From the NCBI GenBank assembly GCA_018660265.1, contig JABJKS010000076.1, forward strand, positions 67,942 to 129,234: a stretch of DNA of 61,293 nucleotides, read 5' to 3'. The stretch comes from Rhodospirillaceae bacterium. Lineage in GTDB: Bacteria; Pseudomonadota; Alphaproteobacteria; GCA-2731375. Made by a program: the position numbers and the translations under genes. The notes below the pieces were generated by a model. It saw only the letters and a program-made list of their open reading frames with translations, ran no database searches and was not told the DNA's origin. Position 1 is the first letter of the stretch; every line of letters begins with the position of its first letter. Shown here one piece after another: positions 8,498 to 37,592 of the stretch.

Positions 8498-8959
8498 TCA
8501 AAATTGCAAATAGCGCCCGGAGGCACCCAGCAACATGGTGATCAAACCCAGTGTCAGGTTGATACCGACAACTTTGCGAATCCTGGCCAATTGTATCGCT
8601 GCCGCTTCAAAGTCGCTTTCGTCCAGCGCATCCTTGAAACGGCGATAGGGGCCCAAATAGATATGCAAATACAACCCTATCATCACCCAACCCGTCGCCT
8701 GCATCAAATGGATATGCAGCCCCACTTCGGATAAGCCGCCAAGATGGGTGAAAACCATGATGTATCCGGAAATCAGGATCATCGCGATAACAATCCAGAT
8801 GCGGGAGAAAAAGCGTCGCAAAACCCCGCGCCACAGCACCAGGCGAAGCGGCGGCGGCAGATGCAATTCGGCGGCGGGCCGAAGACAACGATGGGCGAAA
8901 TACATCCCCCCCACCCAGATGGCCGCAGCCAACAGATGCACCCCAACCCAAATTCCCAT
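8498..8959 (-). CDS. CopD-domain integral membrane protein
   Basis: The 153-residue hydrophobic protein begins MGIWVGVHLLAAAIWVGGMYFAH, a membrane segment with the HLxAxxxWVGG pattern of CopD/DUF2269-type proteins. Three further membrane segments follow at about 48-68, 80-105 and 128-148. His residues in or near the membrane helices may bind haem or copper in relatives. I chose ATG 8959 (AGGGA seven bases upstream) over the TTG at 8965. It is first in a probable operon with two SDR genes. Function is unknown beyond a probable redox or metal-linked membrane role. Confidence 0.75.
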   Translation of the reverse strand: MGIWVGVHLLAAAIWVGGMYFAHRCLRPAAELHLPPPLRLVLWRGVLRRFFSRIWIVIAMILISGYIMVFTHLGGLSEVGLHIHLMQATGWVMIGLYLHIYLGPYRRFKDALDESDFEAAAIQLARIRKVVGINLTLGLITMLLGASGRYLQF

Positions 8960-9120
8960 AAACAATCCCTCAATGCCCGAACAACAACTGCATTAGCCCA
9001 ACCTTAAAGCATGGTGAGGGCCGAATGCAGTATTTTTCACGCGATTTGGGCGCGCGCGATGGCAATGGATCGGTTATGCTGCGGCAAAATCTATCGATGT
9101 AATTGAAAGGAAGCTTCTCC

Positions 9121-9897
9121 GTGGCCATGAACCTGTTTGATCTATCCGGCAAAGTTGCCGTTGTTACCGGCTCTACCAAAGGAATTGGCAGGGCGATGGC
9201 TGAAGCCATGGCCGAACATGGGGCCAAGGTTGTGATCACGTCCCGCAAGGCGGACCTGTGTGAAGAAGTCGCCAATGGCATTAAGGCTGCGGGTGGCGAG
9301 GCCATCGCGGTACCCTGCAATGTCTCGCACAAAGATCAAATGGAAAACCTGCTGGCCGTGACGCGGGAGACGTGGGGGCAGATCGATATTCTGATCCTGA
9401 ACGCCGCCGTCAATCCATTCTATGGTTCTGCCCTCGACATTCCCGACGATGCCTTTGATAAAACCATGGACGTGAACATCAAATGCAATTTGGCTTTCTG
9501 CCGGAACGTGATACCGGAAATGCAGGCTCGAAAGGATGGCGCGATCATGATCGTTTCATCCATTGGCGGCCTGCGCGGCAGTACTGTTCTGGGTGCCTAC
9601 TGCATCTCGAAAGCGGCCGATATGCAGATCGTGCGTAATCTGGCAGCTGAATTCGGCAAAGACAACATTCGGGTCAACTGCATTGCACCAGGCTTGGTGA
9701 AAACCAATTTCGCCCGCGCGCTGTACGAAGACCCCGAAATTGCCAAAATTCGCGCCGATGCCACGCCCATGCGCCGCCTGGGCGAGCCGGAGGATCTGGC
9801 CGGTATCGCTGTCTATCTTGCCTCAAAAGCCGGGTCATGGACCACCGGACAGGTCTTTTGCATCGATGGTGGCGTTACCACCACCGGCGAGGGCTAG
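9121..9897 (+). CDS. SDR-family oxidoreductase
   Basis: The product is about 258 residues from GTG 9121, which lies seven bases after AGGAAG; ATG 9127 and TTG 9103 are alternatives. It has TGSTKGIG (about 16-23), NAAVNP in place of NNAG, the catalytic Ser in IVSSIGG and YCISK as the Tyr-x3-Lys pair. The terminus SWTTGQVFCIDGGVTT resembles the DHRS4/gluconate 5-dehydrogenase type of SDR. It is divergent from the copD-SDR-SDR unit and ends 28 bases before glnD. It is not a close copy of the two SDRs at 6871-8466. The substrate is unknown. Confidence 0.88.
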   Translation: MAMNLFDLSGKVAVVTGSTKGIGRAMAEAMAEHGAKVVITSRKADLCEEVANGIKAAGGEAIAVPCNVSHKDQMENLLAVTRETWGQIDILILNAAVNPFYGSALDIPDDAFDKTMDVNIKCNLAFCRNVIPEMQARKDGAIMIVSSIGGLRGSTVLGAYCISKAADMQIVRNLAAEFGKDNIRVNCIAPGLVKTNFARALYEDPEIAKIRADATPMRRLGEPEDLAGIAVYLASKAGSWTTGQVFCIDGGVTTTGEG

Positions 9898-9925: not shown

Positions 9926-12718
9926 ATGACATCGGGGGACGCATTCACGGACCGGCGAAAGGTCATTGACCGGGCGGAATTGAGCCAGGCATTGAGCGAT
10001 CTTGGCGAAGACTATGCCCCCGACAGCCCCGCCATGCGTACAGCCGTATTACAGTTGTTAAAGGATGCCCTGTCGGCGGGCCATGACGAAGTGCAACGTC
10101 GTTTCGATGCCAGCGGCAGCGGCAATCTGGTCGTGACCGCCAATTGCTATCTGATGGATCAATTGATCCGGGCGCTGTACGACTTCACCACGGGCGTGGT
10201 GTTCAATGCAGCCAACCCAACAGATTCCGAACGCATCGGACTGGTCGCCATCGGCGGCTATGGCCGTGGCGAATTGGCCCCCCAGTCCGACATCGATCTG
10301 CTGTTCCTGCTGCCCTACAAACAGACCCCCTGGGGAGAGCAGGTAATCGAATACATGCTCTACATGCTGTGGGATTTACGCCTGAAAGTGGGGCATGCCA
10401 CGCGTACCGTAAATGAGTGTATCCGCCTCTCGCTCAGCGACCTGACCATCCGCACCACTTTGTTGGAAGGACGTTACCTGTGGGGCGACGAAGATCTGTT
10501 CAAGGAAATGAAGGTGCGCTTCAACGAAGAGGTGGTGGCCGATACCGGCCCCGATTTCGTAGAAGCGAAATTGGCGGAGCGTAACGAGCGCCACCAGCGC
10601 ATGGGCGACAGCCGCTATTTGTTGGAACCCAACGTCAAGGACGGCAAGGGCGGATTGCGTGATCTGCATACCCTGTTCTGGATCGCCAAGTACCTTTATC
10701 AGGTTGATGATGTGGCAGAACTGGTTGGGCGCGGTGTCCTCACGGAGGCAGAATATCGTCTGTTCACCAAGGCGGAGACATTTCTGCGTAAAGTACGCTG
10801 CCAGCTGCATTATCTGGCCAAACGCCCGGAAGAACGCCTGACCTTCGATGTTCAACCGGAATTGGCGGCCCGCCTGGGCTATACCGATCATACGGGCAGT
10901 TCCGGCGTTGAACGGTTCATGAAGCATTACTTCCTGGTGGCAAAGGATGTCGGTGATCTGACACGGATTTTCTGTGCCGCATTGGAAGAACAGCACAAAC
11001 GGCAGCCAAGGTTCCGGCTGCCACGGTTCGGTTTGCGCCGGCGGGAGATTGATGGCTTTCTGGTCGAAGGCGACCGGATAAATCTGCTGGACGATGATGA
11101 TTTCCGCCGGGACCCGTTGAAACTGATCCGGCTGTTCCACGTGGCGCACGAAAAAGAACTGGATATTCATCCCCAGGCCCTGCGCCTGATTACCCGCAAT
11201 CTACGTCTGATCGACAATGACCTGCGGGACAACGCAGAAGCCAATCGCCTGTTCCTGGAAATCATCAGTTCCACACGAAACCCCGAAACCACCCTGCGGC
11301 GCATGAACGAGGCAGGCGTGTTCGGACGCTTTGTGCCGGATTTCGGGCGCGTCGTGGCCCAGATGCAGCATGATATGTATCACGTCTATACGGTGGACGA
11401 GCACACCATCCGGGCCATGGGTATTCTGGCCCGCATTGAAGCGGGAGAGTTGGAAGACGATCACCCCCTTTCGAGCGAGGTTATCGGCAAAGTCAAATTA
11501 CGCCGGGTCTTGTATGTTGCTCTGTTGCTGCACGATATTGCCAAGGGGCGGGGTGGCGACCATTCGGTCCTGGGGGCGGAAGTCGCCGAAGCGCTTTGCC
11601 CCCGCCTTGGCATGGATGCGGCCGAAACGGAAACCGTCGCCTGGTTGGTACGCTGGCATCTGGGCATGGCGCACACGGCCTTCAAGCGCGATCTGGATGA
11701 TCCTAAAAGCATCAGTGATTTCGTGGAATTGGTACAAAGCCCCGAGCGCTTAAAGCTGTTGGTGGTGCTAACGGTTTGCGATATCCGGGCGGTTGGGCCG
11801 GGCATCTGGAACGGCTGGAAGGGGCAATTGCTGCGCCTTCTGTATAACCGGGCAGAGGAATATATGCTGGGCGGCCAACCCCTTGCCAATCGTGAAGAAC
11901 GCGCCGAGGGGGTCAGGGAAGCCCTGAGGGAGAAGCTACAGGATTGGCCGGAAGCGGCGGTGGAGCGGCATTTGGCCCGAGGCGTCGCAGCCTTCTGGTT
12001 ATCCGCGGAACTGTCCGATCATGAATATTGGGCCCGCATAATGCGTGCCGCCGATGAAGCCGATCAAGGCATCGCCATCGACGTGCGTGTGCATCCATTT
12101 GAATCCTTCACCGAACTGGCAGTCTATACCGCTGATCATCCCGGCCTGTTTTCCCGCCTGGCCGGTGCCATTTCGGTTTCCGGCGCGACCATCGCCGGGG
12201 CGCGAATATTCACCACGACGGACGGCATGGCCCTGGATGTATTCTCGATCCAGGATATGGACGGCAATCCCATAGAACGGCCCGAAAGCATTGCCCGTCT
12301 ACGCCGGGTGATCGGCAAGATCCTTTCGGGCGAACAGCACCTGTCGGTCGCACTTGGGGAACGCCGCAGCCACCTGCCGGGCCGGGCCAGCGTTTTCACG
12401 GTACAGCCCGCCGTGATCATCGACAACGAGGCCTCCCGCGCCCACACGGTGATTGAGGTCAACGGTCGCGACCGCCCCGCCCTGCTGCATGATCTGACAA
12501 AGGCGTTCTACAGCCTGTCCCTTACCATCGCCAATGCCCGCATTGCGACTTATGGGGAACGCGCCGTGGATGTCTTCTACGTCAAGGATCTGTTTGGCTT
12601 GAAAATCACCGCACCCACGCGTTTGGAAACCATTCGCCTCCGCCTGCTGGACGCCCTGGCGGACCCGGACCAACCGACGGAAGAAACCGAACAGCCGGAC
12701 AAGGCCGTCACAGCCTAA
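9926..12718 (+). CDS. glnD: [Protein-PII] uridylyltransferase/uridylyl-removing enzyme
   Basis: The 930-residue protein starts at ATG 9926; an in-frame start further up would overlap the preceding SDR. Domains in order: a nucleotidyltransferase with GGYGRGELAPQSDID at about 110-124, a GlnE-like helical domain, an HD phosphohydrolase with His536-Asp537 in LLLHDIAKGRGGDHS, and two ACT domains (about 728-800 and 838-910) that sense glutamine. GlnD uridylylates PII proteins under nitrogen limitation and deuridylylates them when glutamine is high. The C-terminus is acidic and low in complexity. A double-hairpin repeat and a terminator follow immediately. Confidence 0.97.
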   Translation: MTSGDAFTDRRKVIDRAELSQALSDLGEDYAPDSPAMRTAVLQLLKDALSAGHDEVQRRFDASGSGNLVVTANCYLMDQLIRALYDFTTGVVFNAANPTDSERIGLVAIGGYGRGELAPQSDIDLLFLLPYKQTPWGEQVIEYMLYMLWDLRLKVGHATRTVNECIRLSLSDLTIRTTLLEGRYLWGDEDLFKEMKVRFNEEVVADTGPDFVEAKLAERNERHQRMGDSRYLLEPNVKDGKGGLRDLHTLFWIAKYLYQVDDVAELVGRGVLTEAEYRLFTKAETFLRKVRCQLHYLAKRPEERLTFDVQPELAARLGYTDHTGSSGVERFMKHYFLVAKDVGDLTRIFCAALEEQHKRQPRFRLPRFGLRRREIDGFLVEGDRINLLDDDDFRRDPLKLIRLFHVAHEKELDIHPQALRLITRNLRLIDNDLRDNAEANRLFLEIISSTRNPETTLRRMNEAGVFGRFVPDFGRVVAQMQHDMYHVYTVDEHTIRAMGILARIEAGELEDDHPLSSEVIGKVKLRRVLYVALLLHDIAKGRGGDHSVLGAEVAEALCPRLGMDAAETETVAWLVRWHLGMAHTAFKRDLDDPKSISDFVELVQSPERLKLLVVLTVCDIRAVGPGIWNGWKGQLLRLLYNRAEEYMLGGQPLANREERAEGVREALREKLQDWPEAAVERHLARGVAAFWLSAELSDHEYWARIMRAADEADQGIAIDVRVHPFESFTELAVYTADHPGLFSRLAGAISVSGATIAGARIFTTTDGMALDVFSIQDMDGNPIERPESIARLRRVIGKILSGEQHLSVALGERRSHLPGRASVFTVQPAVIIDNEASRAHTVIEVNGRDRPALLHDLTKAFYSLSLTIANARIATYGERAVDVFYVKDLFGLKITAPTRLETIRLRLLDALADPDQPTEETEQPDKAVTA

Positions 12719-12720
12719 AG

Positions 12721-12828
12721 CTTTTCCGACTAGGAAATGCTCCGACTCTTAAGAATCGAGCAATTTTTCCAATCACTTAGAATCGCCCCAGTGCTTAGGG
12801 CGATTCTCTTTTGATCGGAATTGCTCTA
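12721..12828. repeat. Double-hairpin intergenic repeat, copy A (reverse orientation)
   Basis: Read on the reverse strand this is nearly identical to copy D at 43823. It starts AGAGCAATTCCGATC, carries an internal stem (AGAATCGCC/GGCGATTCT), closes with AATTGCTC, continues through the linker GATTCTTAAGAGTC and ends in a second arm (GAGCATTTCC...). It begins right after the glnD stop. Copies A-F together define the family. Confidence 0.8.
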
Positions 12829-12833
12829 AAACG

Positions 12834-12876
12834 ACAACCGCCGAACCCACGATGTGGACCCGGCGGTTGTTTCATT
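12834..12876. terminator. Rho-independent terminator between glnD and the chemoreceptor gene
   Basis: A 10-bp perfect stem, ACAACCGCCG (12834-12843) with CGGCGGTTGT (12861-12870), is followed by TTCATTT on the plus strand and preceded by a short A-run. It could terminate glnD and, read from the other side, the convergent chemoreceptor gene. Confidence 0.7.
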
Positions 12877-12893
12877 TATGGACTTCGGTGGTA

Positions 12894-13003
12894 AGAGCAA
12901 TTTTCAATTAATCAGAATCGCTAGCGCGATCTAAGTGATTGGTTCAATTGCTCGATTCTTAAGAGTCCCAGCGCCTTGGGCATGTTTAAATGAAACATGC
13001 TCT
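12894..13003. repeat. Double-hairpin intergenic repeat, copy B
   Basis: The first hairpin runs from AGAGCAATT (12894) to AATTGCTC with the inner arm AAGTGATTGG. The linker GATTCTTAAGAGTC follows, then a second hairpin of ATGTTT/AAACAT ends in GCTCTA. The terminal CTA is the reverse-strand stop codon (TAG) of the chemoreceptor gene. Confidence 0.8.
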
Positions 13004-16000
13004 ACGCAGCCCTGACATCCGTCAAGAAGGTTTCCACCGTACCTTTCAAAGCCTCGGCCTGTTTGGCCAATTCTTCTGAGGCAGACATGACCTGTGCAGC
13101 CGCGGAACCGGTTTCAGAGGTTGCCTCGGAAACAGAGGAGATATTCACCGTAACCTCCTGGGTGCCCTTGGCGGCCTGATCCACATTGCGGCCAATCTCC
13201 TGGGTTGCCGCCGATTGTTCCTCCACGGCGGATGCCACAGAGGATGATATCTCGTTGATCTTGCCGATGATATCTCCAATACCCTGCAGGGCATTGACGG
13301 CACCATCCGTCTCTTGCTGCATAGAGGTGATTTGGGCCGCAATTTCATCCGTGGCCTTGGCAGTTTGGGTGGCTAAGTTTTTCACTTCGGAGGCGACCAC
13401 GGCAAAGCCTTTACCGGCCTCGCCCGCCCTGGCCGCTTCAATCGTCGCGTTCAAGGCCAACAAGTTGGTTTGCGAAGCGATATCATTGATCAAACCAACC
13501 ACATCACCAATCTTCTGGGCCGCATCGTTCAGACTTAGAACCGATTGGTTGGTGTTATCAGTCTGCGTTACAGCTTCTGAGGTGATCCGCGCCGACTCGG
13601 AGACTTGCCGGGTGATCTCGTCAATCGATGAGGCCAGTTCCTCGGACGCAGCAGCAACAGTCTGCACATTGGCGCTGGCCTGTTCCGAGGCCGCCGCCAC
13701 TGCGGATGACTGCTGCATAGTCCGTTCCGCCGTGTTCGTCATGGTGCGCGCGGTGGCGTCCATTTCGGTCGTGGCGGAGGCGACGGTTTTCAGAATACCG
13801 GCAACAGCACCATCAAATTCCTTGGTGATGTTTTCAATCTTCTGCGCCCGCTCCTCGCGACCGGCCCGTTCCCGCTCCTGTTCGGCAACCAGTTCGTCAT
13901 TGCGGATCATATTATCCTTAAAGACCTGAACCGCAGCGGCCATGGCACCAACTTCATCCACCCGATCCTGAGCTGGGATTTCAATGGTCGTATCGCCATC
14001 CGCCAGCGTCGTCATCGAAGATGTCATGTCGACAATTGGCTTTGATACGGAACGGGCCAGGAAATAGCCGGCGACGGCAATAGCCGCTGCCCCGATCAGG
14101 CCAATGACAATCATCAACCATTTCAAGTGGCTAATCACGGCAAAGGCTTCCGCCTCGTCGATCTCGGCCAGCAGACCCCAGGTTATACCACCATCCAATT
14201 CCAGCGGCGTATAGGCGGATAGAACCGGATTTCCATTGTAGTCGATGACGATATCCTTGCCCGTGTTACCTGCCAAAGCAGCCTTGGCCGCATCGGAGGT
14301 TACGCTGCCTTTGGCGGGATCAGCGAACGAGGCGACGACGGAATGGTTCGTTGCATCCAGGAAGGAGTCCGAACGCATCAGGTTATCGCTGCCGATAAGG
14401 TAACTTTCACCGGTTTCGCCCATGCCCTCACGCTGTTGCATGATGGCATTTATGGCACCTAATGACAGTTGCAGGGCAACGATAAGTTCGGTTTCACCAT
14501 TTTGAATAACGGGTTGCGCGATAAAGGCCGCAGGCTCGTTATTGGAAGGTGCATAGGGAGCGAAATCAGCCAAACCGTATTTGCCGGTTTTCAACGTGCT
14601 TCGGATCAATTTTCCCAAACCGGAGGCGGCGTATTTGCCATCCACCATGTTCGTCTGATAGTCGGATTCACGGGCCGCCGAATAGAAGACAAAGCCCTTG
14701 GGGTCGACCAGAAACAGATCATAATAACCATATTGTTCGATGTACTTGGCATAGAATTCCTTGCCGGCAGCATCCACCGGAGAGACGAATTCCGCAATGT
14801 CCATCTTGGCGTTTAATGACCAGGTGACGCCTTTGGCAATTTCAACAGGCGTATAGCTAATCATTGTTGGTTTCTTACGATAGTCGACGATGTATTTGAC
14901 GCCGGTCTCACCCTTTTCAAACACGGCGCGGGTCGCAGCCGTATCCACCTTACCTTTTTTCGGATGACGGAATGAAGCGACGACGGAGCGGTTTTTGGTG
15001 TCCAGACGACTGTCGGAACGCATTTTATAATCGGAGCCGACCAGAATAGTTTCCCCGGTTTTACCCAGGCCCGACGTCTCACTCATAATTTCAGTAATAC
15101 GATCCAGGGGCATCTGGAAAATCAAAACGCCCAGCTTCTGGTTACCGTCATAGATGGGTGAGGCGATAAAGCCCGCCGGTGCGTCGTAGGATGGAGTATA
15201 TAGATCGTAATCCATCAAAGATGACGTTTGGGGACCATCCTGTGCCATGGCCGCGTGATATGCCTTGGCCAGACCGGATTTGGCCCAAGGTCCATGCTTT
15301 AGCGAGGTACCATAATCAAGTTCCTTGAAAACGGAATATTGCACGGTGCCAGTGTCGGCATCGACCAGGAAAATATCGTAATAACCGAATTTTTCCAGAT
15401 AGTTGCGGATAATCGGATGAACCTGGCCGTGTAACCGGCCATAGCCGGAACCATCGCCCAGACTATCGAGCAGATGCTTGCTGCCCAAGGGGTTCTTGTT
15501 TGCACGGATGAATTTGTACTGGAATACAACCGCGTTGTCCGACAGCTTGGCAACTGTACCCGAGGCGTCAAATTTGGCGCTATCGTTCTGGGCGGCATAT
15601 TCAGTCGAGAACTCGTCGGTATAATATGTCGCCAACGCCGTGCGCATCTTCGCCATTTGGGCGGGCGTCACATTCGTCTCGGCGGCATAGCTTTTAAAGG
15701 CACTGTCAAAGCCGAGCATCGCATCCACAATCATGCGGTCTTCCGACAATGTCAGAACCTGATCCCGAATGCCGGCGAAGTATCTGACCACGGCAGCCTT
15801 CTTTATTTCGCGGATGGCCTTGAGTTTGCCGATCGCTTCCGTACGCAGGGTATCGACGGTTTCCATCAATACGCCCATGTCGCCTTTACGTTCGGCAAAA
15901 AAGCTCTCGATCTGTGCTTTCTTGATACCTCGAACACCTTCCAGCTGATTAAAGGCTTGGTTTGAGAGGGCACCTGACGCACGATCAAGGGCAACAAGGC

Positions 16001-23652: not shown

Positions 23653-24912
23653 ATGAGTGTATCCCTCCCCCATATCAGTAATCAGCAAGCCCGACGCATT
23701 TTCATGGCGCGGCAAGGCCTATGTTTGCCGCCCCACAAGCTGCAAAGCAAAGAGGATTTGCGGGATCTGATCCGGCAATTGGGCTTCGTGCAGATCGATA
23801 GTATCCGCACCGTGGAACGGGCCCACCATATGATCCTGTTCACGCGCAATCAGACCTACCGGCCAGAATACCTGCGTCAATTGCTGGAGGTTGACCGCCA
23901 TCTGTTTGAACATTGGACCCATGACGCCGCCCTGATCCCCACTGACTTTTATCCGCACTGGCAACAGCGGTTCACGCGGGCAGAAGCCGGCCTACGGGAA
24001 CGCTGGCGCAAAATCCGACCCAAGGGACAAAGCGCTGTGGGGGAGATCAGCTTTGAAGATATGATGGAGCAGGTGAAGACCCACGTTCATCACAACGGCC
24101 CCACCATGTCCCGTGATCTAAAGCGGAAGTCAGAGACAAAAGTTGCAAAAAAGAACGGCTGGTGGGAATGGCATCCTTCCAAAACCGCGTTGGAGTTTCT
24201 TTGGCGTACGGGTGATCTGTCCATCACCCGGCGGGACGGCTTTCAAAAGGTCTATGATTTATCGGACCGCGTAATCCCCACCCATGCCCGTGGCAATGCC
24301 CGTGGCGAAAATGGGCAAACCGACAGCGCCTATATCGATTGGGCCTGTAGCGCAGCCCTTGATCGATTGGGATTTGCCACTTCGGGCGAACTGGCAGCTT
24401 TTTGGGGTTCCATCAAGGCGGCGGATGCCCGTGCCTGGTGCGAAGCGAACGCGCGCGGGAATTTGCGGGAGGTCATGGTGGAAAGTGCCGATGGCAGCCC
24501 ACCAAAATTGAGTTATGCCCGCACCGAATTGCTGGAGGAACTCCCATCCCTCTCCCCGCCACCCGATCGCTTGCGGCTGTTAAGCCCGTTTGACCCTCTG
24601 ATCCGGGACCGCAAACGCCTCCAACGCCTGTTCGATTTCGACTACCGCATCGAAATTTTCGTCCCCGAAGCCCAACGTAAATACGGCTACTATGTATTTC
24701 CGCTGTTGGAGGGGGATAGAATGATCGGGCGCATTGATATGAAAGCCCAACGCAAGGACAGCGCCTTGCATGTTACGGGATTGTGGCTGGAACCCAAGAT
24801 CAAACTGACCGCTGGCCGAAAGCAGAAGATCAATGCCGAATTGAACCGCCAGGCAAAATTTATCGGCATGAACCGGATCACATTCGCCCCCCAGCTACAG
24901 GCCATGGCGTAG
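23653..24912 (+). CDS. YcaQ/AlkX-family DNA glycosylase (winged-helix, DUF1006)
   Basis: The 419-residue protein is of the HTH_42 family that includes E. coli YcaQ, an interstrand crosslink repair glycosylase. The Q-x-D motif of that family is Gln47-Ile48-Asp49 in GFVQIDSIRTVERAHH. Other family features are FEHWTHDAALIP and the C-terminal RDRKRLQRLFDFDYRIEIFVPEAQRKYGYYVFPLL. It should excise bulky or crosslinked N7-alkylated bases. The 3' end overlaps the convergent tauE-like gene by 18 bases. Whether it is crosslink-active like YcaQ or alkyl-base-specific cannot be judged. Confidence 0.87.
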   Translation: MSVSLPHISNQQARRIFMARQGLCLPPHKLQSKEDLRDLIRQLGFVQIDSIRTVERAHHMILFTRNQTYRPEYLRQLLEVDRHLFEHWTHDAALIPTDFYPHWQQRFTRAEAGLRERWRKIRPKGQSAVGEISFEDMMEQVKTHVHHNGPTMSRDLKRKSETKVAKKNGWWEWHPSKTALEFLWRTGDLSITRRDGFQKVYDLSDRVIPTHARGNARGENGQTDSAYIDWACSAALDRLGFATSGELAAFWGSIKAADARAWCEANARGNLREVMVESADGSPPKLSYARTELLEELPSLSPPPDRLRLLSPFDPLIRDRKRLQRLFDFDYRIEIFVPEAQRKYGYYVFPLLEGDRMIGRIDMKAQRKDSALHVTGLWLEPKIKLTAGRKQKINAELNRQAKFIGMNRITFAPQLQAMA

Positions 24913-25647
24913 AATAATATAGCCGCCCAGGACCAACAGGGCGATGAAGAAGACCCGGCGGAATAATTGTTCAGGCAGCTTTTGTCTGATCCGTTGGCCA
25001 AAGGCCATGCCGATAAGGGCAGGCGGTAATGCAGCCAAGGATGTCAGACCGAGTTCCTTGCTCAACAAATCATTGCCCCCAAGCGCGATGCCAAGGGCGA
25101 CAGTCGAGGCCGTAAATAAGATCCCCATGGCCTGGATCAGACCATCCCGCGGCAGGCCAATGGATTGCAGGAACATGACGCCTGGCACAACGAATGATCC
25201 GGTCAACCCGGTCAACAACCCATTTGCCAAACCCAGAACAGGCCCTAACCATACTTCCTGCCGTTTGGAAATTTCGAACCGCAGGCCCAGCAGACTGACG
25301 CCTGCATAAATCGCCAACAGGACGCCAAGCAGCATGGAGAGCAAAGACAGATCGAACCAGGCAAGGCCTTTGGCCCCAAGCCAGACGGTCAGGGTTGCGA
25401 CCGCCAAAAACGGCCACAGGCGGCGCACAATGGCACCAAAACCGGGGCCTTGGCCGCCAACCATGGCCTGCCAGACGTTGGTTACGAACGAGGGCACCAA
25501 CAGCAGGGCCATGGCTGTGGGCAGATCAATTATCACTGTCAGTATGGCTAGGCTGACGGATGGCAGGCCAAGCCCGATCACGCCCTTGACTGTACCGGCA
25601 AGGAAAAACGTCGCAATGACGGGAAGCAGGACGGCGATATCGAACAT
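24895..25647 (-). CDS. TauE/SafE-family sulfite/anion exporter
   Basis: The 250-residue inner-membrane protein has about eight hydrophobic segments and the family motif GTVKGVIGLGLPSVSLAI near the N-terminus and its weaker echo GLLTGLTGSFVVPGVMFLQ at about 140-158, as expected from the internal duplication. Relatives export sulfite, sulfoacetate or other organic anions. It is nine bases downstream of an FAD-dependent oxidase gene and probably in the same transcript, so it could remove that enzyme's product; this is inference. It is convergent with and overlaps the ycaQ-like gene. Confidence 0.88.
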   Translation of the reverse strand: MFDIAVLLPVIATFFLAGTVKGVIGLGLPSVSLAILTVIIDLPTAMALLLVPSFVTNVWQAMVGGQGPGFGAIVRRLWPFLAVATLTVWLGAKGLAWFDLSLLSMLLGVLLAIYAGVSLLGLRFEISKRQEVWLGPVLGLANGLLTGLTGSFVVPGVMFLQSIGLPRDGLIQAMGILFTASTVALGIALGGNDLLSKELGLTSLAALPPALIGMAFGQRIRQKLPEQLFRRVFFIALLVLGGYIILRHGL

Positions 25648-31591: not shown

Positions 31592-32569
31592 TTATTGATA
31601 ACAACCCGAAATACGGCCCTTTTGCTGAACCAAAGCCAAAACACCATCAATATTTGGTGTTGATACTTCGCACAATCGTCCCAATTCGGCGACCGCACCA
31701 ACCAAGGCGTCGATCTCCATGGCGCGACCCCGCTCCAGGTCCTGCAGCATAGATGTCTTGTGGGCACCTACCGCTGCCGCGCCTGCGATACGGCGATCAA
31801 CGTCGACGCCGAATTTAACGCCTAACCTTTCGCCAATATTCTGCGCTTCTACCATCATGGCCCGGGCCAACGCACGGGTATCAGGGTCGCCGCAAATTTG
31901 TTCCAGCGTCGCCCCGGTCAAAGCCGATATGGGATTGAAGCTTAAATTACCCCAAAGCTTAACCCAGATCTCATCACGAATGCGGGGTCGCACGGGCGCC
32001 TTGAAGCCAGCCTTTCGGAACGCTTCCGCCAGATCCGTCAGACGCGCGGTTTTCTCTCCGTTAGGTTCACCAATACTGAAACGGTTACCTTCGATATGCT
32101 CAATCACTCCCGGCTCGGCCACTTCGCAGGCGGGATAGACGACACAACCAATAGCCCGGCGTCCTTCGATCACGTCCCATTGCCGCCCGCCGGGATCAAC
32201 GCTTTCCAAACGGCGCTCTCCATAGGGGCCATCAAGGCCATAAAAATACCACCACGGCACCCCGTTAACAGCCATCACCACCGCAGTATCTGCATGAAAC
32301 AAGGCCGGCAATTGATCCACCACCGCCGGCACCGAATGGGCCTTTAGGGTAACAATTACATAGTCCTGTGGACCCAGTTCATCCGGATTGTCCGTGCAGG
32401 GGATGTTCTGGGTGAAACTTTCCCCTGCCATCCGCAGGGTCAGTCCATTGCGCCGAATTGCTTCCCCGTGGGGGCCGCGTGCAACGAGGGAGATATCATA
32501 GCCGGCCCGCGCCAGGCAGGCCCCCATATATCCACCAATGGCGCCTGCGCCATAAATACAAATTTTCAT
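31592..32569 (-). CDS. Ketopantoate reductase-family (ApbA/PanE) 2-oxoacid reductase
   Basis: The 325-residue protein starts with the NADPH motif GAGAIGGYMG (7-16), and the catalytic and substrate residues of the family are visible: Lys in TLKAHS, Asn in MAVNGVP and in LWGNLSFNPISALTG, and KTSMLQDLERGRAMEIDALVGAV near 260-285. PanE reduces ketopantoate to pantoate, but many paralogues reduce other branched 2-oxo acids, so the panE symbol is not assigned. It is 103 bases downstream of the CoA-ligase gene on the same strand and may belong with the mutase cluster. Confidence 0.88.
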   Translation of the reverse strand: MKICIYGAGAIGGYMGACLARAGYDISLVARGPHGEAIRRNGLTLRMAGESFTQNIPCTDNPDELGPQDYVIVTLKAHSVPAVVDQLPALFHADTAVVMAVNGVPWWYFYGLDGPYGERRLESVDPGGRQWDVIEGRRAIGCVVYPACEVAEPGVIEHIEGNRFSIGEPNGEKTARLTDLAEAFRKAGFKAPVRPRIRDEIWVKLWGNLSFNPISALTGATLEQICGDPDTRALARAMMVEAQNIGERLGVKFGVDVDRRIAGAAAVGAHKTSMLQDLERGRAMEIDALVGAVAELGRLCEVSTPNIDGVLALVQQKGRISGCYQ

Positions 32570-32672: not shown

Positions 32673-34121
32673 TTAGATGCGTGCGTCCCGCAGGCTGCGG
32701 CGACGCACCTTACCCGCATCATCGCGCAGCGGTTCAGAAACGAATTCCAATGTTCTGGGAATTTTATAGCGCACCAGATGCTCACCCAGGTGGGCCAGCA
32801 AACCCTCCGCCGTGACATCACCTTCCGGCGCATCGACAACCCCGTGGACCGCATTACCAAGATCTTCATGCGGCAGACCGATCACGGCAGACGACCGCAC
32901 ACCTGGGTACAGATCGATTGCCGCCTCCACCTCCGCCGGGTAGATATTGGCCCCGCCAGAGAGGATCATGTCGCTGCGCCGGTCCGTCAGATAGAGGTAG
33001 CCATCGTCATCCACATAGCCCATATCGCCAAGGGATTCCCAACCCCCGACATCTGCCGTCGCCTCAGCACCAATATAAAAATAACTGACACCCTGCCCTT
33101 CATCAGGCAGCAAATACACCTCCCCCACCTCGCCTCGGGGCACAGGCCGGCCTTCGCTGTCCACAATCTTCAGGCTGTACCCTTCCACAATCTTGCCGAC
33201 AGAGCCACGATGCGCCAACCACTCGGTGCCCGAAATGGTGGTGAAACCCTGGGCCTCGGTACCGCCATACAACTCCATCAAAACATCGCCCCCAAACCAT
33301 TCGATGAAGGCCTCCTTTAACCAAGCCGGACAGGGTGCCGCCATGTGCCAGGCCAGTCGCAGGGAGCTGATGTCATAAGCATCCCGTTCACTGCTGGGCA
33401 GACGCCACATGCGTTGCATCATGGTCGGGACCATATAGATCAATTGCACCCCATGTTGTTCGATCAAGGCCAACGTTTCCGACGCGTCGAAACGGGAGGT
33501 AATGACCAAATGGTAGCCATACTGCAGGGCGATCATGCCCATGCTGAAGGGGCCGTTGTGATACAATGGCCCAGGCATCAAGGCCACCTGCTCGGGGACC
33601 AAGCCCAATTTCTCCCCCAACGGCTCAACGGTGGCGGGGTCTTTCGAGACGATCAGCTTTGGCCGCCCGGTCGAGCCGCCCGAGGTCATCGCCTTCCAAT
33701 ATTTTGCCGTCGCCTCATCCAAGGGCGCATCGGAAAGTGCCGGGTCGGGGACATAGTCTACCGGCAGGGAGGCGGTGTCCGGGCAAACGCCTTCGGCAAC
33801 ACCAACAACCAGAACCGGCTGGCCCAACGCAATAATCTGGAGCAATTCATGCTCCGGCAGGCGATAGGATATAGGTTGTGGCGTCGCACCCAACTTCCAG
33901 GTGGCGAAGACCGCTTCGACAAAGGCGATGGAATTCGGCAGGGCGATGGTCACAAAATCATCCACCCCGACGCCCAGTTCCTGATAGGCCCGGGCCAGGC
34001 GATTTGTCCGAGCCTCCAACTGGGCCCTGCTTAGGGTTTCCCCGTCGTGGGTCAGCATTGGCTTGTCAGGATCCGCCCCAGCCCAAAAGGCCAAAATCCG
34101 GGACAGGGACATTTCACTCAT
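32673..34121 (-). CDS. AMP-dependent acyl-CoA synthetase
   Basis: The 482-residue adenylate-forming ligase has the P-loop MTSGGSTGRPK (about 165-175), the ELYGGTEAQ motif (A5), the hinge/A7-A8 region LGDMGYVDDDGYLYLTDRRSDMILSGGANIYPAEVE and the near-terminal GKVRRRSLRD, where the catalytic Lys of the family lies. It makes an acyl-CoA from an acid, ATP and CoA. It is shorter than acetyl- or long-chain ligases and similar in length to small-acid or bile-acid ligases. It is divergent, with 126 bases between starts, from a split B12-dependent mutase, so it may prepare the mutase substrate; this is inference. Confidence 0.9.
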   Translation of the reverse strand: MSEMSLSRILAFWAGADPDKPMLTHDGETLSRAQLEARTNRLARAYQELGVGVDDFVTIALPNSIAFVEAVFATWKLGATPQPISYRLPEHELLQIIALGQPVLVVGVAEGVCPDTASLPVDYVPDPALSDAPLDEATAKYWKAMTSGGSTGRPKLIVSKDPATVEPLGEKLGLVPEQVALMPGPLYHNGPFSMGMIALQYGYHLVITSRFDASETLALIEQHGVQLIYMVPTMMQRMWRLPSSERDAYDISSLRLAWHMAAPCPAWLKEAFIEWFGGDVLMELYGGTEAQGFTTISGTEWLAHRGSVGKIVEGYSLKIVDSEGRPVPRGEVGEVYLLPDEGQGVSYFYIGAEATADVGGWESLGDMGYVDDDGYLYLTDRRSDMILSGGANIYPAEVEAAIDLYPGVRSSAVIGLPHEDLGNAVHGVVDAPEGDVTAEGLLAHLGEHLVRYKIPRTLEFVSEPLRDDAGKVRRRSLRDARI

Positions 34122-34198: not shown

Positions 34199-34247
34199 GT
34201 ATCAAACATCATTGAGCCTCAATGGCACTGCAGTTGGAGTTCTAAGT

Positions 34248-35843
34248 ATGGCGCACGAAGCCAAAAGCCGTTCCGGCATACCCCTCAAGGCATTCTATGA
34301 AAGCCCCGGCGGGGACGCGGATACGCTCGGCGCACCAGGCACCTTTCCTTATACTCGCGGCCGCTTTTCACAAACCCGTTCGGAAGGCAGTTGGATACAA
34401 CGGGAATTGTCCGGTGAAGGCAGCCCCGCAGAATCGAATGCGCTCATGCGTTATCTGTTGGAGTTGGGTCAGACCGGTGTCGACATTATCGGTGATGCCC
34501 CAACCATGAGCATGATGGACCCGGACCATCCCCTCGCGGCTCCCACCGCAGGCACCCAAGGCGTCTCGGCCTGTTGCAGGCAGGATTATCTGGAACTGCT
34601 TGACGGCATTCCCATTTCCGAGACGTCCGTATCCAGTTCCATTCCAGCGGTGTTTTCCATTGCCGGCCTTATTCATGCGGCCAGACAGGGCAATGTTGGG
34701 CCGGAGAAACTGCGCGGCTCCACCATCCAGGTGCCGCTGTATCAGGAAGATTGCAGTTATCGCATCCATATGCCGGTTAATTTCCGCAGCCGTCTATCTG
34801 CCGATTGCGTCGCCTATTGCGCCGAAACCCTGCCACGGTTTCATGTCTTTTTGGAAGACACCTACTATTTTAGCGAATCCGGCCTGACCGCCATTGAGGA
34901 GATGGCCCTGGGCTTTGTGGAGATCCGGCACTTGATCCGGCAACTGCTGGGCCGGGGCATTGATGTCGACAGCTTCGCCCCGCGCATCGCCATATTGCTC
35001 AACTGTTCCATGGATTTTTTTGAGGAGATCGCCAAGATCAGGGCCACCCGGCGATTGTTCGCCCGCATGATGCGCGATGAATTCGGTGCCAAGGATCCCC
35101 GCTCCCACTCCGTTGTGATCACCTCCCATACCTCCGGCTTGGCGATGACCGCGCAACAGCCGGTGAACAATATCATGCGCGGCACCTTGCAATCCCTGTC
35201 CCTGGTCCTGGCCGGTGTTCAGGCCATCGAAATCTCGGCCTTTGATGAGGCCCTGCGCACGCCCAGCCGGGAATCCCATCTGGTCAGTCTGCGCACCCAA
35301 CAGATCATTGATCTGGAAAGCGGGGCGGCCCAGGTCGCCGACCCCCTGGGCGGTTCGTACTATGTGGAGGCACTGACCGACGATATCGAGGCGCGGATTT
35401 GGGACATGGTCTTGGAAATCGAGGCCAAGGGTGATGTGGAAACCTTGGTGGATCAGGGTTATTTCAAAGAGATCTTTCACACTGCCATGGAACGGCAAAG
35501 CCAGAATGTCGCCTCCGGGGCTGAGAACGTCGTCGGTGTCAACGTGCACCAAATGGCGGAAACGGACGACACCATGCTGCGCGATCTGACAGACAGCAAG
35601 TTTCCCCCCTGTAAGGACCATATTGATCGCATCAAGGCCTTTAAGGCCGCGCGGGATCCCATAGGTCTGCAACGTGGTCTTGCCCCGATCCTTGAAGCCA
35701 GCAAGACCGACAGCGGCAATCTGCTTGCCCTGACCATCGATGCTTTCGAAGCGGGGGCCACGGCGGGCGAAATCGCCGGCGGCTTCCGCCTGGGCTGCGG
35801 CGCGGCCTACGATCCATTCGGGCAGATGGAACCCCCGATCTAA
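34248..35843 (+). CDS. Divergent methylmalonyl-CoA-mutase-family large subunit
   Basis: The 531-residue protein starts at ATG 34248 (GGAG nine bases before); earlier in-frame codons overlap the divergent ligase. It aligns by eye without gaps over long stretches to the substrate barrel of B12-dependent acyl-CoA mutases: PYTRG (34-38), ESNALMRYLL (62-71), STIQ (158-161), FAPRI, TSHTSGLAMTAQ and SAFDEALRTPSRES. Against P. shermanii methylmalonyl-CoA mutase numbering, several functional residues differ: Tyr89 is Leu54, His244 is Tyr207, Arg207 is about Tyr171, Thr77 and Arg82 are Gln and Gly, and His328/Gln330 are Thr/His. It lacks a C-terminal B12 domain, which is the next gene. The substrate is therefore not methylmalonyl-CoA in any obvious way. 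Fold sure; reaction unknown. Confidence 0.88.
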   Translation: MAHEAKSRSGIPLKAFYESPGGDADTLGAPGTFPYTRGRFSQTRSEGSWIQRELSGEGSPAESNALMRYLLELGQTGVDIIGDAPTMSMMDPDHPLAAPTAGTQGVSACCRQDYLELLDGIPISETSVSSSIPAVFSIAGLIHAARQGNVGPEKLRGSTIQVPLYQEDCSYRIHMPVNFRSRLSADCVAYCAETLPRFHVFLEDTYYFSESGLTAIEEMALGFVEIRHLIRQLLGRGIDVDSFAPRIAILLNCSMDFFEEIAKIRATRRLFARMMRDEFGAKDPRSHSVVITSHTSGLAMTAQQPVNNIMRGTLQSLSLVLAGVQAIEISAFDEALRTPSRESHLVSLRTQQIIDLESGAAQVADPLGGSYYVEALTDDIEARIWDMVLEIEAKGDVETLVDQGYFKEIFHTAMERQSQNVASGAENVVGVNVHQMAETDDTMLRDLTDSKFPPCKDHIDRIKAFKAARDPIGLQRGLAPILEASKTDSGNLLALTIDAFEAGATAGEIAGGFRLGCGAAYDPFGQMEPPI

Positions 35844-35879
35844 AAGAGTGGTTTAAGAAGAGTGATCTAAGAGGAAGCC

Positions 35880-36308
35880 ATGCAACAGGCAAAAATCATC
35901 ATCGGCGTCATGGGCGTCGATCAACATGAAAACGGTGCGGTCGCAGTCATGCGGTTTTTGCGTGAGGCACAGATGGAGGTTTCCTATGCTGGCCTTTTCA
36001 ACACCAGCGAAACCTTGATCGAAAAAGCCCTGGCTGCGGACGTGGATGTGATCGGCATATCCTGCCATTCCTGGGAATATATCCACTATTTGCCTGATCT
36101 GATGCAGCGGCTGGCAGCCGGCGGACGCGAGGTGCCCGTGGTTGTGGGCGGCTCTGTCCTAACCGCCCGGGACCGTATGGAACTGACCGAACTGGGCGTG
36201 GCCGGAGTGTTCCCCGCTGGCTCCCAACCCGATGAGATGATCGATGCGATCCGCGATCTGGCCGCCGTCCGGGTGCAGGCGCGATCAGAAGCCGCACAAC
36301 CGGCCTGA
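35880..36308 (+). CDS. Cobalamin-binding small subunit of the split mutase
   Basis: The 142-residue protein has the flavodoxin-like B12-binding fold. DxHxxG is present as Asp14-Gln15-His16-Glu17-Asn18-Gly19, where the His replaces the dimethylbenzimidazole ligand of cobalt. The second element is GISCHSW (Ser-x-His instead of the common Ser-x-Leu) and the third is VVVGGSV (about 85-91). The Lys four residues before the motif Asp in methylmalonyl-CoA mutase is Val10 here. It lies 36 bases after the large subunit, so a two-protein mutase, as in isobutyryl- or 2-hydroxyisobutyryl-CoA mutases, is expected. No MeaB-type GTPase chaperone is seen nearby. Confidence 0.9.
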   Translation: MQQAKIIIGVMGVDQHENGAVAVMRFLREAQMEVSYAGLFNTSETLIEKALAADVDVIGISCHSWEYIHYLPDLMQRLAAGGREVPVVVGGSVLTARDRMELTELGVAGVFPAGSQPDEMIDAIRDLAAVRVQARSEAAQPA

Positions 36309-36413
36309 CAACAGTCGCCACCTTATGTCCCCGCCAAATTTCACGGGGGTGCAAATTTCCGCCATCGCCTTATGATGCCCGTTCAGACAGCACATAGTCA
36401 TAAAGGGGCCATC

Positions 36414-37592
36414 ATGGTCGGCAACCAACCCTATCAGGCAGGACGCCATTTTCTGCAAATACCCGGGCCCACCAATGTGCCCGACCGCATTCTGCGCGCC
36501 ATGGATGGCGCCACCATAGATCATCGCGGCCCGGCCTTTGAGGAGTTGGCGCGGCGGGTTCTGGACGGCATCAAGCCGATTTTTCAGACCCAGGATCCGG
36601 TCGTGATCTACCCCGCCTCGGGCACCGGCGCGTGGGAGGCGGCATTGGTCAACACGCTTTCGCCGGGCGACCGGGTGCTGATGGTGGAGACCGGACAATT
36701 TGCCACCCTGTGGCAAAGCCTGGCAACCCGTCTGGGTTTGGATGTGGTTTTCATTGCCGGCGATTGGCGTCACGGGGTCCAGGCGGGTCAAATTACCGCT
36801 GCCCTGGCCGATGACAAAAATAACCAGATCAAAGCTGTCTGCTGCGTGCACAACGAAACCTCCACCGGCGTGACCTCTGATATCGCCGCCGTGCGCCGGG
36901 CCATGGATGAGGCCGGACATGGCGCATTATTGATGGTCGATACCATATCCTCCCTCGCCTCAATCGATTACCGGCACGACGAATGGGGCGTTGATGTCAG
37001 CATCGGCGGCTCGCAAAAGGGCTTGATGCTGCCGCCGGGATTAAGTTTCAATGCCATCAGCGACAAGGCATTGGCGGCGCATGCGGGCGCGGGGTTGATG
37101 CGGTCCTACTGGGATTGGGTGCCAATGCTATCGGCAAATAAAAGCGGTGCCTTTCCTTTTACCCCCGCGACAAATCTGCTGTACGGCCTGAATGAAGCCA
37201 TCATCATGTTGCGAGAAGAAGGCTTGGAGAATGTTTTCCTGCGCCACGCCCGGCTGGCAGAGGCGACCCGGCGGGCCGTTGCCGCCTGGGGCCTTGAAAC
37301 TGTAGCGCAGATGGATGCTGAAAAATCCAACAGTCTGACAGCCGTCATGCTGCCCGAAGGTCACGACGCAGATGCCTTTCGTGCCCAGACCCTGCGGCGT
37401 TTCAATATGTCCCTGGGCAATGGCTTGGGACGCTTGGCAGGGCGGGTCTTCCGCATCGGGCATTTGGGAGATTTCAATGACCTGATGTTGGCGGGGACGC
37501 TTTGTGGCGTGGAAATGGGCCTGGCCGCGTCAGGTGTGCCCCATAACAAGGGCGGCGTTCAGGCCGCTTTGGATTTCCTGGGCGAAGGGTAG
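36414..37592 (+). CDS. Class V PLP aminotransferase (serine/alanine-glyoxylate type)
   Basis: The 392-residue protein starts at ATG 36414 behind AAGGGG. It opens with the family motif GRHFLQIPGPTNVPDRILRAM, has HNETSTGV, the aspartate that supports the pyridine ring in MVDTISSLAS and Lys202 in GGSQKGLMLPPG as the PLP Schiff-base lysine. FRIGHLGDF at the C-terminus is typical of serine-glyoxylate aminotransferase (SgaA). It transfers an amino group to glyoxylate to give glycine. It lies 105 bases after the mutase small subunit on the same strand; a metabolic link, for example through a C2 or hydroxypyruvate product, is possible but unproven. Confidence 0.88.
   Translation: MVGNQPYQAGRHFLQIPGPTNVPDRILRAMDGATIDHRGPAFEELARRVLDGIKPIFQTQDPVVIYPASGTGAWEAALVNTLSPGDRVLMVETGQFATLWQSLATRLGLDVVFIAGDWRHGVQAGQITAALADDKNNQIKAVCCVHNETSTGVTSDIAAVRRAMDEAGHGALLMVDTISSLASIDYRHDEWGVDVSIGGSQKGLMLPPGLSFNAISDKALAAHAGAGLMRSYWDWVPMLSANKSGAFPFTPATNLLYGLNEAIIMLREEGLENVFLRHARLAEATRRAVAAWGLETVAQMDAEKSNSLTAVMLPEGHDADAFRAQTLRRFNMSLGNGLGRLAGRVFRIGHLGDFNDLMLAGTLCGVEMGLAASGVPHNKGGVQAALDFLGEG

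Follow-up and report, generated by a model that had tools for sequence, protein, structure and literature searches.

The split mutase gene pair

The 61,293-nucleotide stretch of Rhodospirillaceae bacterium DNA analysed here (assembly GCA_018660265.1, contig JABJKS010000076.1, positions 67,942 to 129,234 of the forward strand; hereafter, the window) carries two adjacent genes that encode the two subunits of a split, B12-dependent mutase:

34248..35843, + strand: large subunit, with the mutase barrel; 531 aa; PF01642, 416 bits (cut-off 22.1)
35880..36308, + strand: small (B12-binding) subunit; 142 aa; PF02310, 71.5 bits (cut-off 32.1)

The two open reading frames are 36 bases apart, and a plausible Shine-Dalgarno stretch, judged by eye, lies ahead of both (GGAG at 34236-34239, upstream of the large-subunit ATG). 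PF01642 and PF02310, both above their curated cut-offs, place the pair in the methylmalonyl-CoA (MM-CoA) mutase superfamily. In a phmmer search of solved structures, the large subunit matched 2-hydroxyisobutyryl-CoA mutase (HCM; 4r3u) best (288 bits) and human methylmalonyl-CoA mutase (MCM) second (250 bits); its scores against the NCBIfam equivalogs of MCM (NF006944; 320.6 bits) and IcmF (134.7 bits) were far under the cut-offs of 876 and 1500, respectively. As modelled by AlphaFold2 (pLDDT 83.7, pTM 0.87), the large subunit aligned with MCM 2xiq at Z 41.2 (rmsd 2.4, 486 residues), with HCM 4r3u at Z 39.9 (rmsd 2.5, 493 residues) and with glutamate mutase at Z 20.3 (rmsd 3.2, 336 residues); the small-subunit model had a pLDDT of 94.3. 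The mutase barrel that a preliminary description of this DNA, made from the sequence alone, had recognized in the large subunit is thus borne out by profile score and model alike. An Rfam scan of the window at gathering thresholds gave no matches.

Rewritten residues in both subunits

In MCM, Arg207 binds a carboxylate, Tyr89 acts as a wedge and His244 contacts and polarizes the thioester; Gln330, Asn366 and barrel serines also have active-site roles, and Ser239 and Ser241 line the CoA tunnel. We mapped such positions onto the window protein by phmmer alignment to MCM and HCM and by hhalign profile-profile alignment of 44 members of its clade (described below) with 36 outside mutases, a set without eight deviant and five fused-type sequences. 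Clade counts refer to 72 large-subunit rows (the window protein and 71 relatives), two of which are cut at the N-terminus. The following positions were rewritten:

34407..34409, + strand: Leu54 codon (MCM Tyr89); Leu in 70/70 readable clade rows
34758..34760, + strand: Tyr171 codon (MCM Arg207; hhalign); Tyr in 72/72
34842..34844, + strand: His199 codon (MCM Asn236); His in 72/72
34854..34868, + strand: E203-D204-T205-Y206-Y207, EDTY[FY] (ISGYH in MCM, with His244 at Tyr207); E203, D204 and Y206 in 72/72
35127..35129, + strand: His294 codon (MCM Gln330); His in 72/72; C-terminal end of modelled barrel strand 290-294
35229..35237, + strand: Glu328 (MCM His364) and Ser330 (MCM Asn366); each in 72/72

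The MCM combination of Tyr89, Arg207 and His244 is replaced by Leu, Tyr and Tyr or Phe. The substitutions of Tyr89 by Leu54 and of Arg207 by about Tyr171, proposed for the window protein in the preliminary description, hold throughout the readable clade rows; the strand ahead of Tyr171 may be shifted by one residue, in which case the partner of Arg207 is Ser170, and Arg was present at neither position in any of the 72 rows. The proposed match of His244 with Tyr207 was correct for the window protein, and no clade row has His there, but the residue is not strictly Tyr (Phe in 49 rows and Tyr in 23). A shifted His was likewise absent from positions 201 to 213 (0/72 rows); in the large-subunit model, Tyr206 and Tyr207 come just after strand 198-204. 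The suggested loss of Thr77 and Arg82 applies to the window protein, which has Gly47 at the Arg82 position, but is no rule for the clade, because the Arg82 position is variable (Arg in 12/69 readable rows). The position of Asp117, a hallmark of the 2-hydroxyisobutyryl-CoA mutase HcmAB, is occupied by Ile81, with Ile in 70/70 readable rows. MCM Glu370 and Arg283 were retained as Glu334 and Arg246 (hhalign); Arg246, Asp333 and Glu334 are invariant (72/72), and hydroxyl residues at 129, 131 and 158 were kept in all 72 rows. The retention of Arg246 and of these hydroxyls fits CoA binding.

The small subunit was compared in an alignment of 66 clade rows and five control sequences, in which three features stood out:

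35907..35909, + strand: Val10 codon (MCM Lys604); Lys absent from all 62 readable rows (I 21, V 15, T 10, M 10, L 6)
35919..35936, + strand: cobalt-ligand motif DxHxxG, here DQHENG (D14-Q15-H16-E17-N18-G19); DQHE in 65/65 readable rows
36066..36080, + strand: HSWEY motif in place of the SxL...G segment; SxHSWE[YF] in 66/66 rows

Clade small subunits carry DQHE and SxHSWE[YF] where others have DGHDRG and SxL, and the five controls have Lys at position 604 and lack HSWE. Both the intact cobalt-ligating motif and the replacement of Lys604 by Val10 had been noted before and were upheld. As regards base-off/His-on B12 binding, DxHxxG is present and SxL is not (SxH in 66/66). The SxL segment presumably lies at the lower-ligand pocket, and its alteration there makes an unusual cobamide preference possible. 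Both subunits are rewritten in step across the clade, and the pattern of conservation indicates that the substitutions are clade traits and not chance changes.

Such conservation also bears on whether the protein has no catalytic activity, as a mutase homologue that decayed or took on a regulatory role, which the several missing MCM catalytic residues might suggest. We consider this extremely unlikely, since the gene is under purifying selection (NG86 against two relatives, dN 0.20/dS 1.44 and dN 0.24/dS 1.35, for dN/dS values of ~0.14 and ~0.18 that are rough because dS is >1 and near saturation), the replacement residues are invariant across the clade, the Asp-His cobalt motif and the Glu370 equivalent are retained, and a MeaB gene lies within four genes of the mutase in 13 loci.

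Phylogeny and distribution of the clade

Trees were built with FastTree (94 sequences), with IQ-TREE (70 sequences, 22 of them from the clade; LG+F+R4, ultrafast bootstrap [UFBoot]) and with FastTree for 78 sequences including named ones, in all cases without RcmAB, IaaGH and named ethylmalonyl-CoA mutase (ECM) sequences. The clade was monophyletic with a UFBoot of 100 in IQ-TREE and was also monophyletic in the FastTree of 94 sequences. HCM 4r3u, MCM and IcmF-like sequences fell outside it in IQ-TREE; in the FastTree of 78 sequences, so did the HCM of Methylibium PM1 and Xanthobacter (Xaut_5021), MCM, and Xaut_5043 (with its small subunit Xaut_5044, annotated only as methylmalonyl-CoA mutase, we take this to be pivalyl-CoA mutase [PCM]). 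Fused sequences of 712 to 725 aa (L135 and L138; loci are cited by L numbers), for which the label ECM is only a guess, were outside the clade in the FastTree of 94 sequences. HCM, IcmF-like and presumed PCM sequences keep His244, which bears out the statement in the preliminary description that isobutyryl- and 2-hydroxyisobutyryl-CoA mutases retain it. In the FastTree of 78 sequences, none of the 56 non-clade sequences was more than 35.9% identical to the window protein, and each of the 21 clade rows besides its own was at least 47.1% identical. A separate clade with conserved Leu, Tyr and an aromatic residue, invariant in readable rows and placed inside none of the HCM, MCM, presumed PCM or IcmF-like groups, is the outcome that the preliminary description had named in support of its proposal.

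Several sequences next to the clade also lack His244. IQ-TREE joined to it the second mutase copy of L047 (UFBoot 99), L126/L129/L131 (99) and L120/L123 (94). In the FastTree of 78 sequences, Paraburkholderia PGU19 and the second L047 copy adjoined the clade (Shimodaira-Hasegawa [SH]-like support of 0.995 for the three together and 0.217 for the PGU19/L047 branching), followed by Sphingobium WTD-1 with L126/L129/L131 (0.972); PGU19, the L047 copy, WTD-1 and L126/L129/L131 have Asp, Asn or Gly at the His244 position. L120/L123 (Asn at 244) were placed elsewhere in this tree, with the PCM group (0.74), and L113 (Asn at 244) was also outside the clade; these placements suggest that His244 was probably lost more than once. 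Overall, His244 was present in 47/56 non-clade sequences of this tree and absent in 9. Judged from these trees, the clade appears to be the best-sampled part of a deeper branch that lacks His244. A search for members of a sister clade with the PGU19 protein, run without a positive control, found none in 398 genomes (E ≤ 1e-110).

Individual loci of these relatives showed further features. The alphaproteobacterial genes at L126 (~3882-5660), L129 (3544-5271) and L131 (~3951-5756) form a second clade without His244, with Gly at 244 and Val at 89; Lys604 is retained in both small subunits seen of this group (L126 and L129). At L047 (9995-14271), two mutase pairs face each other, one a clade member and the other the deviant copy with Asp at 244. 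The closest named relative of the clade, on a plasmid of Paraburkholderia sp. PGU19 (L176, 1584-8880), lies in a one-strand run of genes for two acyl-CoA dehydrogenases (ACADs), a crotonase, the mutase, its small subunit (Met at Lys604), MeaB and a short-chain dehydrogenase/reductase (SDR). On a plasmid of Sphingobium sp. WTD-1 (L177, 4836-6512), the mutase, with Asn in place of His244, adjoins genes for an AtuA family protein, biotin carboxylase, an enoyl-CoA hydratase-related protein, MeaB and glucose 1-dehydrogenase (an SDR), neighbours that hint at isoprenoid or branched acyl-CoA breakdown.

Clade members were collected in two ways. Among 385 genomes belonging to the same class, nine gave a match (E ≤ 1e-90), the window's own included, the other eight being 52 to 85% identical. 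A scan of species-representative genomes with the nine-member alignment, some genomes being shared with the first search, yielded 71 loci from 125 stretches matching one of two patterns, ED[TS]Y[FY]FSE and [VI]EEMAL[GA]F. Members found through the first pattern are biased to EDTY, so this motif is no independent discovery; Leu54, Tyr171, His294, Glu328 and the small-subunit signature fall outside the patterns. The 72 rows exclude two more mutase genes from clade loci (L033, 5406-7040, and L047, 12583-14271), which fall outside the clade. The rows are not mutually independent; dropping those of <450 aa and those >78% identical to a kept row brought them down to 41. Large subunits of the clade, as called, have up to 567 aa (mostly 527 to 553), and at 64/72 loci the gene run of the large subunit also contained a called small subunit, some loci stopping at or near the mutase.

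Judged by their record titles, members came from Alpha-, Beta- and Gammaproteobacteria, Desulfobacterota, Rokubacteria, Acidobacteria, Chloroflexi, Actinobacteria, Bacillota and others; of the 71 scan loci, all except L028 (Desulfotruncus alcoholivorax DSM 16058) and L036 (Novosphingobium sp. B1) were labelled as metagenome-assembled or uncultured. With the clade profile, the window gene scored 893 bits and any other gene at most 429 in 398 genomes of the phylum (up to three candidates scored per genome), a gap that leaves no second member in this sample. All 381 records of a plasmid search with the window's large subunit (P0001) were <60% identical, with at most 36.8% among the 40 matches listed. 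The genome of the window holds five PF01642 matches, of which the window gene is the sole clade member; of the others, one grouped with MCM, L140 with presumed PCM and L134 on another branch, and the fourth, left out of the trees, resembles IcmF in its residues and in its open frame of 1121 aa. Searches of open-licence PMC papers listed none that recognizably describes the clade, which may nevertheless be in print.

Gene neighbourhood, proposed function and known mutases

To assess neighbours, genes up to four positions from the mutase (n = 489) were compared with those farther off in the same loci (n = 462), relatedness being ignored. Genes for SDR (35/489 versus 12/462; P = 0.0008), crotonase (28/489 versus 9/462; P = 0.002) and MeaB (13/489 versus 0/462; P = 0.0002) were enriched near the mutase. 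The pair in the window is flanked by the following genes:

31592..32569, - strand: ApbA/PanE-type NAD(P)-dependent reductase; NF005089, 511 bits (cut-off 223)
32673..34121, - strand: divergent AMP-forming acyl-CoA ligase; PF00501; closest solved structure by sequence, bile acid-CoA ligase 4lgc (253 bits)
36372..37592, + strand: class V aminotransferase, BhcA-like; NF045640, 470 bits, under the cut-off of 650; 6pk1, 375 bits

At the clustering threshold used, these three neighbours recurred in just two loci, the closely related L023 and L024; the L075 mutase has a ligase nearby that is 35% identical to that of the window. The aminotransferase gene is directly downstream in the window, and one opposite-strand gene lies between in L023 and L024.

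The pair is, with a probability of about 0.68, a working adenosylcobalamin (AdoCbl)-dependent two-subunit acyl-CoA mutase of a distinct, uncharacterised subfamily, as judged against MCM, HCM, presumed PCM and IcmF-like sequences. We infer that the clade consists of AdoCbl mutases acting on a non-dicarboxylic acyl-CoA within a beta-oxidation-like route. With Arg207 and the Tyr89 wedge gone, the substrate should be no diacid of the methylmalonyl or succinyl type, and the loss of Tyr89 should give more room in the pocket. To our knowledge, only a few carbon-skeleton rearrangements of acyl-CoAs by B12 mutases have been described, and the clade enzyme probably rearranges a compound handled by no known mutase. 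A different rearrangement or a different radical chemistry, as raised in the preliminary description, is possible.

By the mechanism we propose, the small subunit would hold a base-off cobamide with His16 on cobalt, and the conserved Asp333 and Glu334 together with the barrel would hold the deoxyadenosyl group. Homolysis would yield the 5'-deoxyadenosyl radical, which would take a hydrogen from the acyl-CoA, whereupon the thioester group would shift to the neighbouring carbon. A CoA ligase would supply the substrate, probably an acyl-CoA that is bulkier, branched, hydroxylated or ring-bearing, and the product would enter hydratase (crotonase) and hydroxyacyl dehydrogenase (SDR) steps. Polarization of the thioester, the task of His244 in MCM, would fall to another residue, the first candidate being the invariant His294 that replaces Gln330; His199 is also a possible stand-in, or an invariant acid may stabilize the radical. 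In other members, the CoA esters may be supplied variously, by AMP ligases, by an NDP-forming ligase-like protein (L063) or by an IOR-like oxidoreductase (L089).

Several observations weigh against an acyl-CoA mutase serving such a route. Neither AMP ligase genes (16/489 versus 9/462; P = 0.14) nor ACAD genes (5/489 versus 6/462; P = 0.76) were significantly enriched near the mutase, the loci in the enrichment test are phylogenetically non-independent, and the ligase, ApbA and aminotransferase genes of the window are unlike the usual neighbours of the clade. The MCM Ser239 position is Leu, Ile or Met in the nine-row alignment and that of Ser241 is the invariant Asp204, replacements that make a CoA substrate uncertain; the invariant carboxylates Glu203, Asp204 and Glu328 could be a sign of a substrate that is cationic or carries an amino group. 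A rival reading has a small non-CoA or amine-bearing substrate, bound by its ammonium group to the carboxylates in a barrel partly closed as in glutamate mutase, with the neighbouring aminotransferase cooperating. The Ser-to-Asp change at 204, the invariant Glu203 and Glu328 and an aminotransferase gene next to the mutase in the window and near it in L023/L024 are in keeping with this proposal. It is nevertheless very unlikely, because the fold matches acyl-CoA mutases (Z 35-41) far better than glutamate mutase (Z 20), the Arg283 equivalent and the tunnel hydroxyls are retained, the enrichment of SDR and crotonase fits CoA-ester chemistry, and the aminotransferase link is limited to close relatives. 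Somewhat doubtful is a broader proposal in which the clade is a functionally separate mutase class that dropped the role of His244 or moved it to His294, and in which the carboxylate-lined pocket and the changed cobamide-tail pocket (HSWEY) would serve a rearrangement or an elimination by radical chemistry, acting on substrates of a class new to B12 mutases.

Other loci offered observations in their own right. Single-locus neighbours (hydrogenase at L083, PGM at L032, GH3 at L059, Mo-hydroxylase at L052, the IOR-like protein at L089 and the NDP-ligase-like protein at L063) pointed to no common substrate. At L026, genes at 8659-9819 and 12448-13782, encoding a PhyH-type dioxygenase and a SorA-like sulfite dehydrogenase (under cut-off), flank the mutase pair, and the window encodes a TauE-type exporter at 24895-25647. 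At L033 (5406-11994), the clade mutase is ~3 kb from a different split mutase with its own MeaB. A family of ~208 aa occurs near the mutase in three distant loci (L066, 13015-13641; L048, 2648-3274; L081, 12106-12729); the member at L066 matched neither Pfam nor NCBIfam at the thresholds applied. A methylmalonyl-CoA-epimerase-like glyoxalase protein (L071, 9495-9941; 73.6 bits, cut-off 115) is encoded directly upstream of the mutase in L071, and the same cluster occurs in L078 and L087. On a Sinorhizobium meliloti plasmid (L174, 3006-9904), an HCM-like mutase is in a run with genes for an aminotransferase, MeaB, crotonase and an AMP-binding protein; the aminotransferase and ligase of the window find a parallel there.

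All known enzymes compared (MCM, HCM, presumed PCM and IcmF-like) keep His244. A wide, conserved clade that does without it provides a natural experiment on the need for this residue. With its matched changes in the B12 subunit, the clade suggests that largely uncultured bacteria possess a metabolic step still to be assigned. Mutases of this kind are sought as catalysts, and an HCM was recently engineered for carbon assimilation (PMC11599936); PMC7888143, PMC8084838, PMC7176365, PMC6759758 and PMC13188929 were also drawn on.

The pair was finally set against the known systems. HcmAB (4r3u; Methylibium PM1 and Xanthobacter Xaut_5021) resembles it in being split, in its barrel (Z 39.9), in DxHxxG and in an aliphatic residue at Tyr89, and the clusters of PM1 and Xanthobacter hold a ligase and MeaB. 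A divergent 2-hydroxyacyl-CoA/3-hydroxyacyl-CoA mutase, with HCM-type chemistry on a 2-hydroxyisobutyryl-like substrate and feeding an SDR hydroxyacyl dehydrogenase, would match the residue at Tyr89 (Leu, versus Ile in HCM) and the SDR and MeaB genes near the clade, given that known HCM clusters comprise a ligase, a MeaB-type protein and/or hydroxybutyryl-CoA dehydrogenase. We regard it as unlikely, since HCM sequences lie outside the clade with strong support, the Asp117 position is Ile in 70/70 readable rows and His244 is lost; a weak additional argument is size, the acetone-degradation mutase of D. cetonica being reported to have a large subunit of 64.7 kDa, versus at most 567 aa in the clade. 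Identity with HcmAB itself, which at 31 to 33% identity forms its own clade and keeps His244, the Asp117 equivalent, Lys604 and SxL, was rejected on the Ile at 117, the absent His244 and the tree. A caveat to the argument from position 117 is RcmA of Kyrpidia RcmAB, which has a hydrophobic residue there. The acetone-pathway HCM of sulfate reducers was set aside on size and identity levels, which are indirect arguments only (the D. arcticum mutase is 46.8% identical to that of D. biacutus). IaaGH, the phenylsuccinyl/benzylmalonyl-CoA mutase whose iaa genes are described in PMC8360864, was set aside because the loss of Arg207 argues against a diacid substrate, the IaaG sequence itself not being compared.

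MCM (human 2xij/2xiq and P. shermanii 1req/5req) shares the fold (Z 38-41 for 2xiq, 1req and 5req), the Tyr243 and Glu370 equivalents and the cobalt His, whereas its Tyr89, Arg207, His244, Asn366 and Lys604 are all replaced in the window pair. Presumed PCM (Xaut_5043/5044, with an adjoining MeaB-type ATPase and TetR regulator) is likewise split and has Leu at 89, but is 28.5% identical, keeps His244 and groups outside the clade with L125/L128/L130/L140 (SH-like 1.0). IcmF has a similar barrel (Z ~35) but is a fused B12-GTPase-mutase protein, unlike the split genes of the window, and the IcmF-like sequences, so named by length, keep His244. Membership in MCM, HCM, presumed PCM or IcmF was set aside on the evidence of trees and residues. 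The nearest relatives, PGU19 (L176), the L047 copy, L126/L129/L131 and WTD-1 (L177), share the absence of His244, and PGU19 also has the His294 and Glu328 equivalents; they differ from the window protein in their identity of 31 to 34% and in lacking EDTY[FY], and HSWEY is absent from the three complete small subunits seen among them. The pair represents a distinct subfamily of a known kind of enzyme, and the rewriting seen in the preliminary description is confirmed in stronger form than was stated there.

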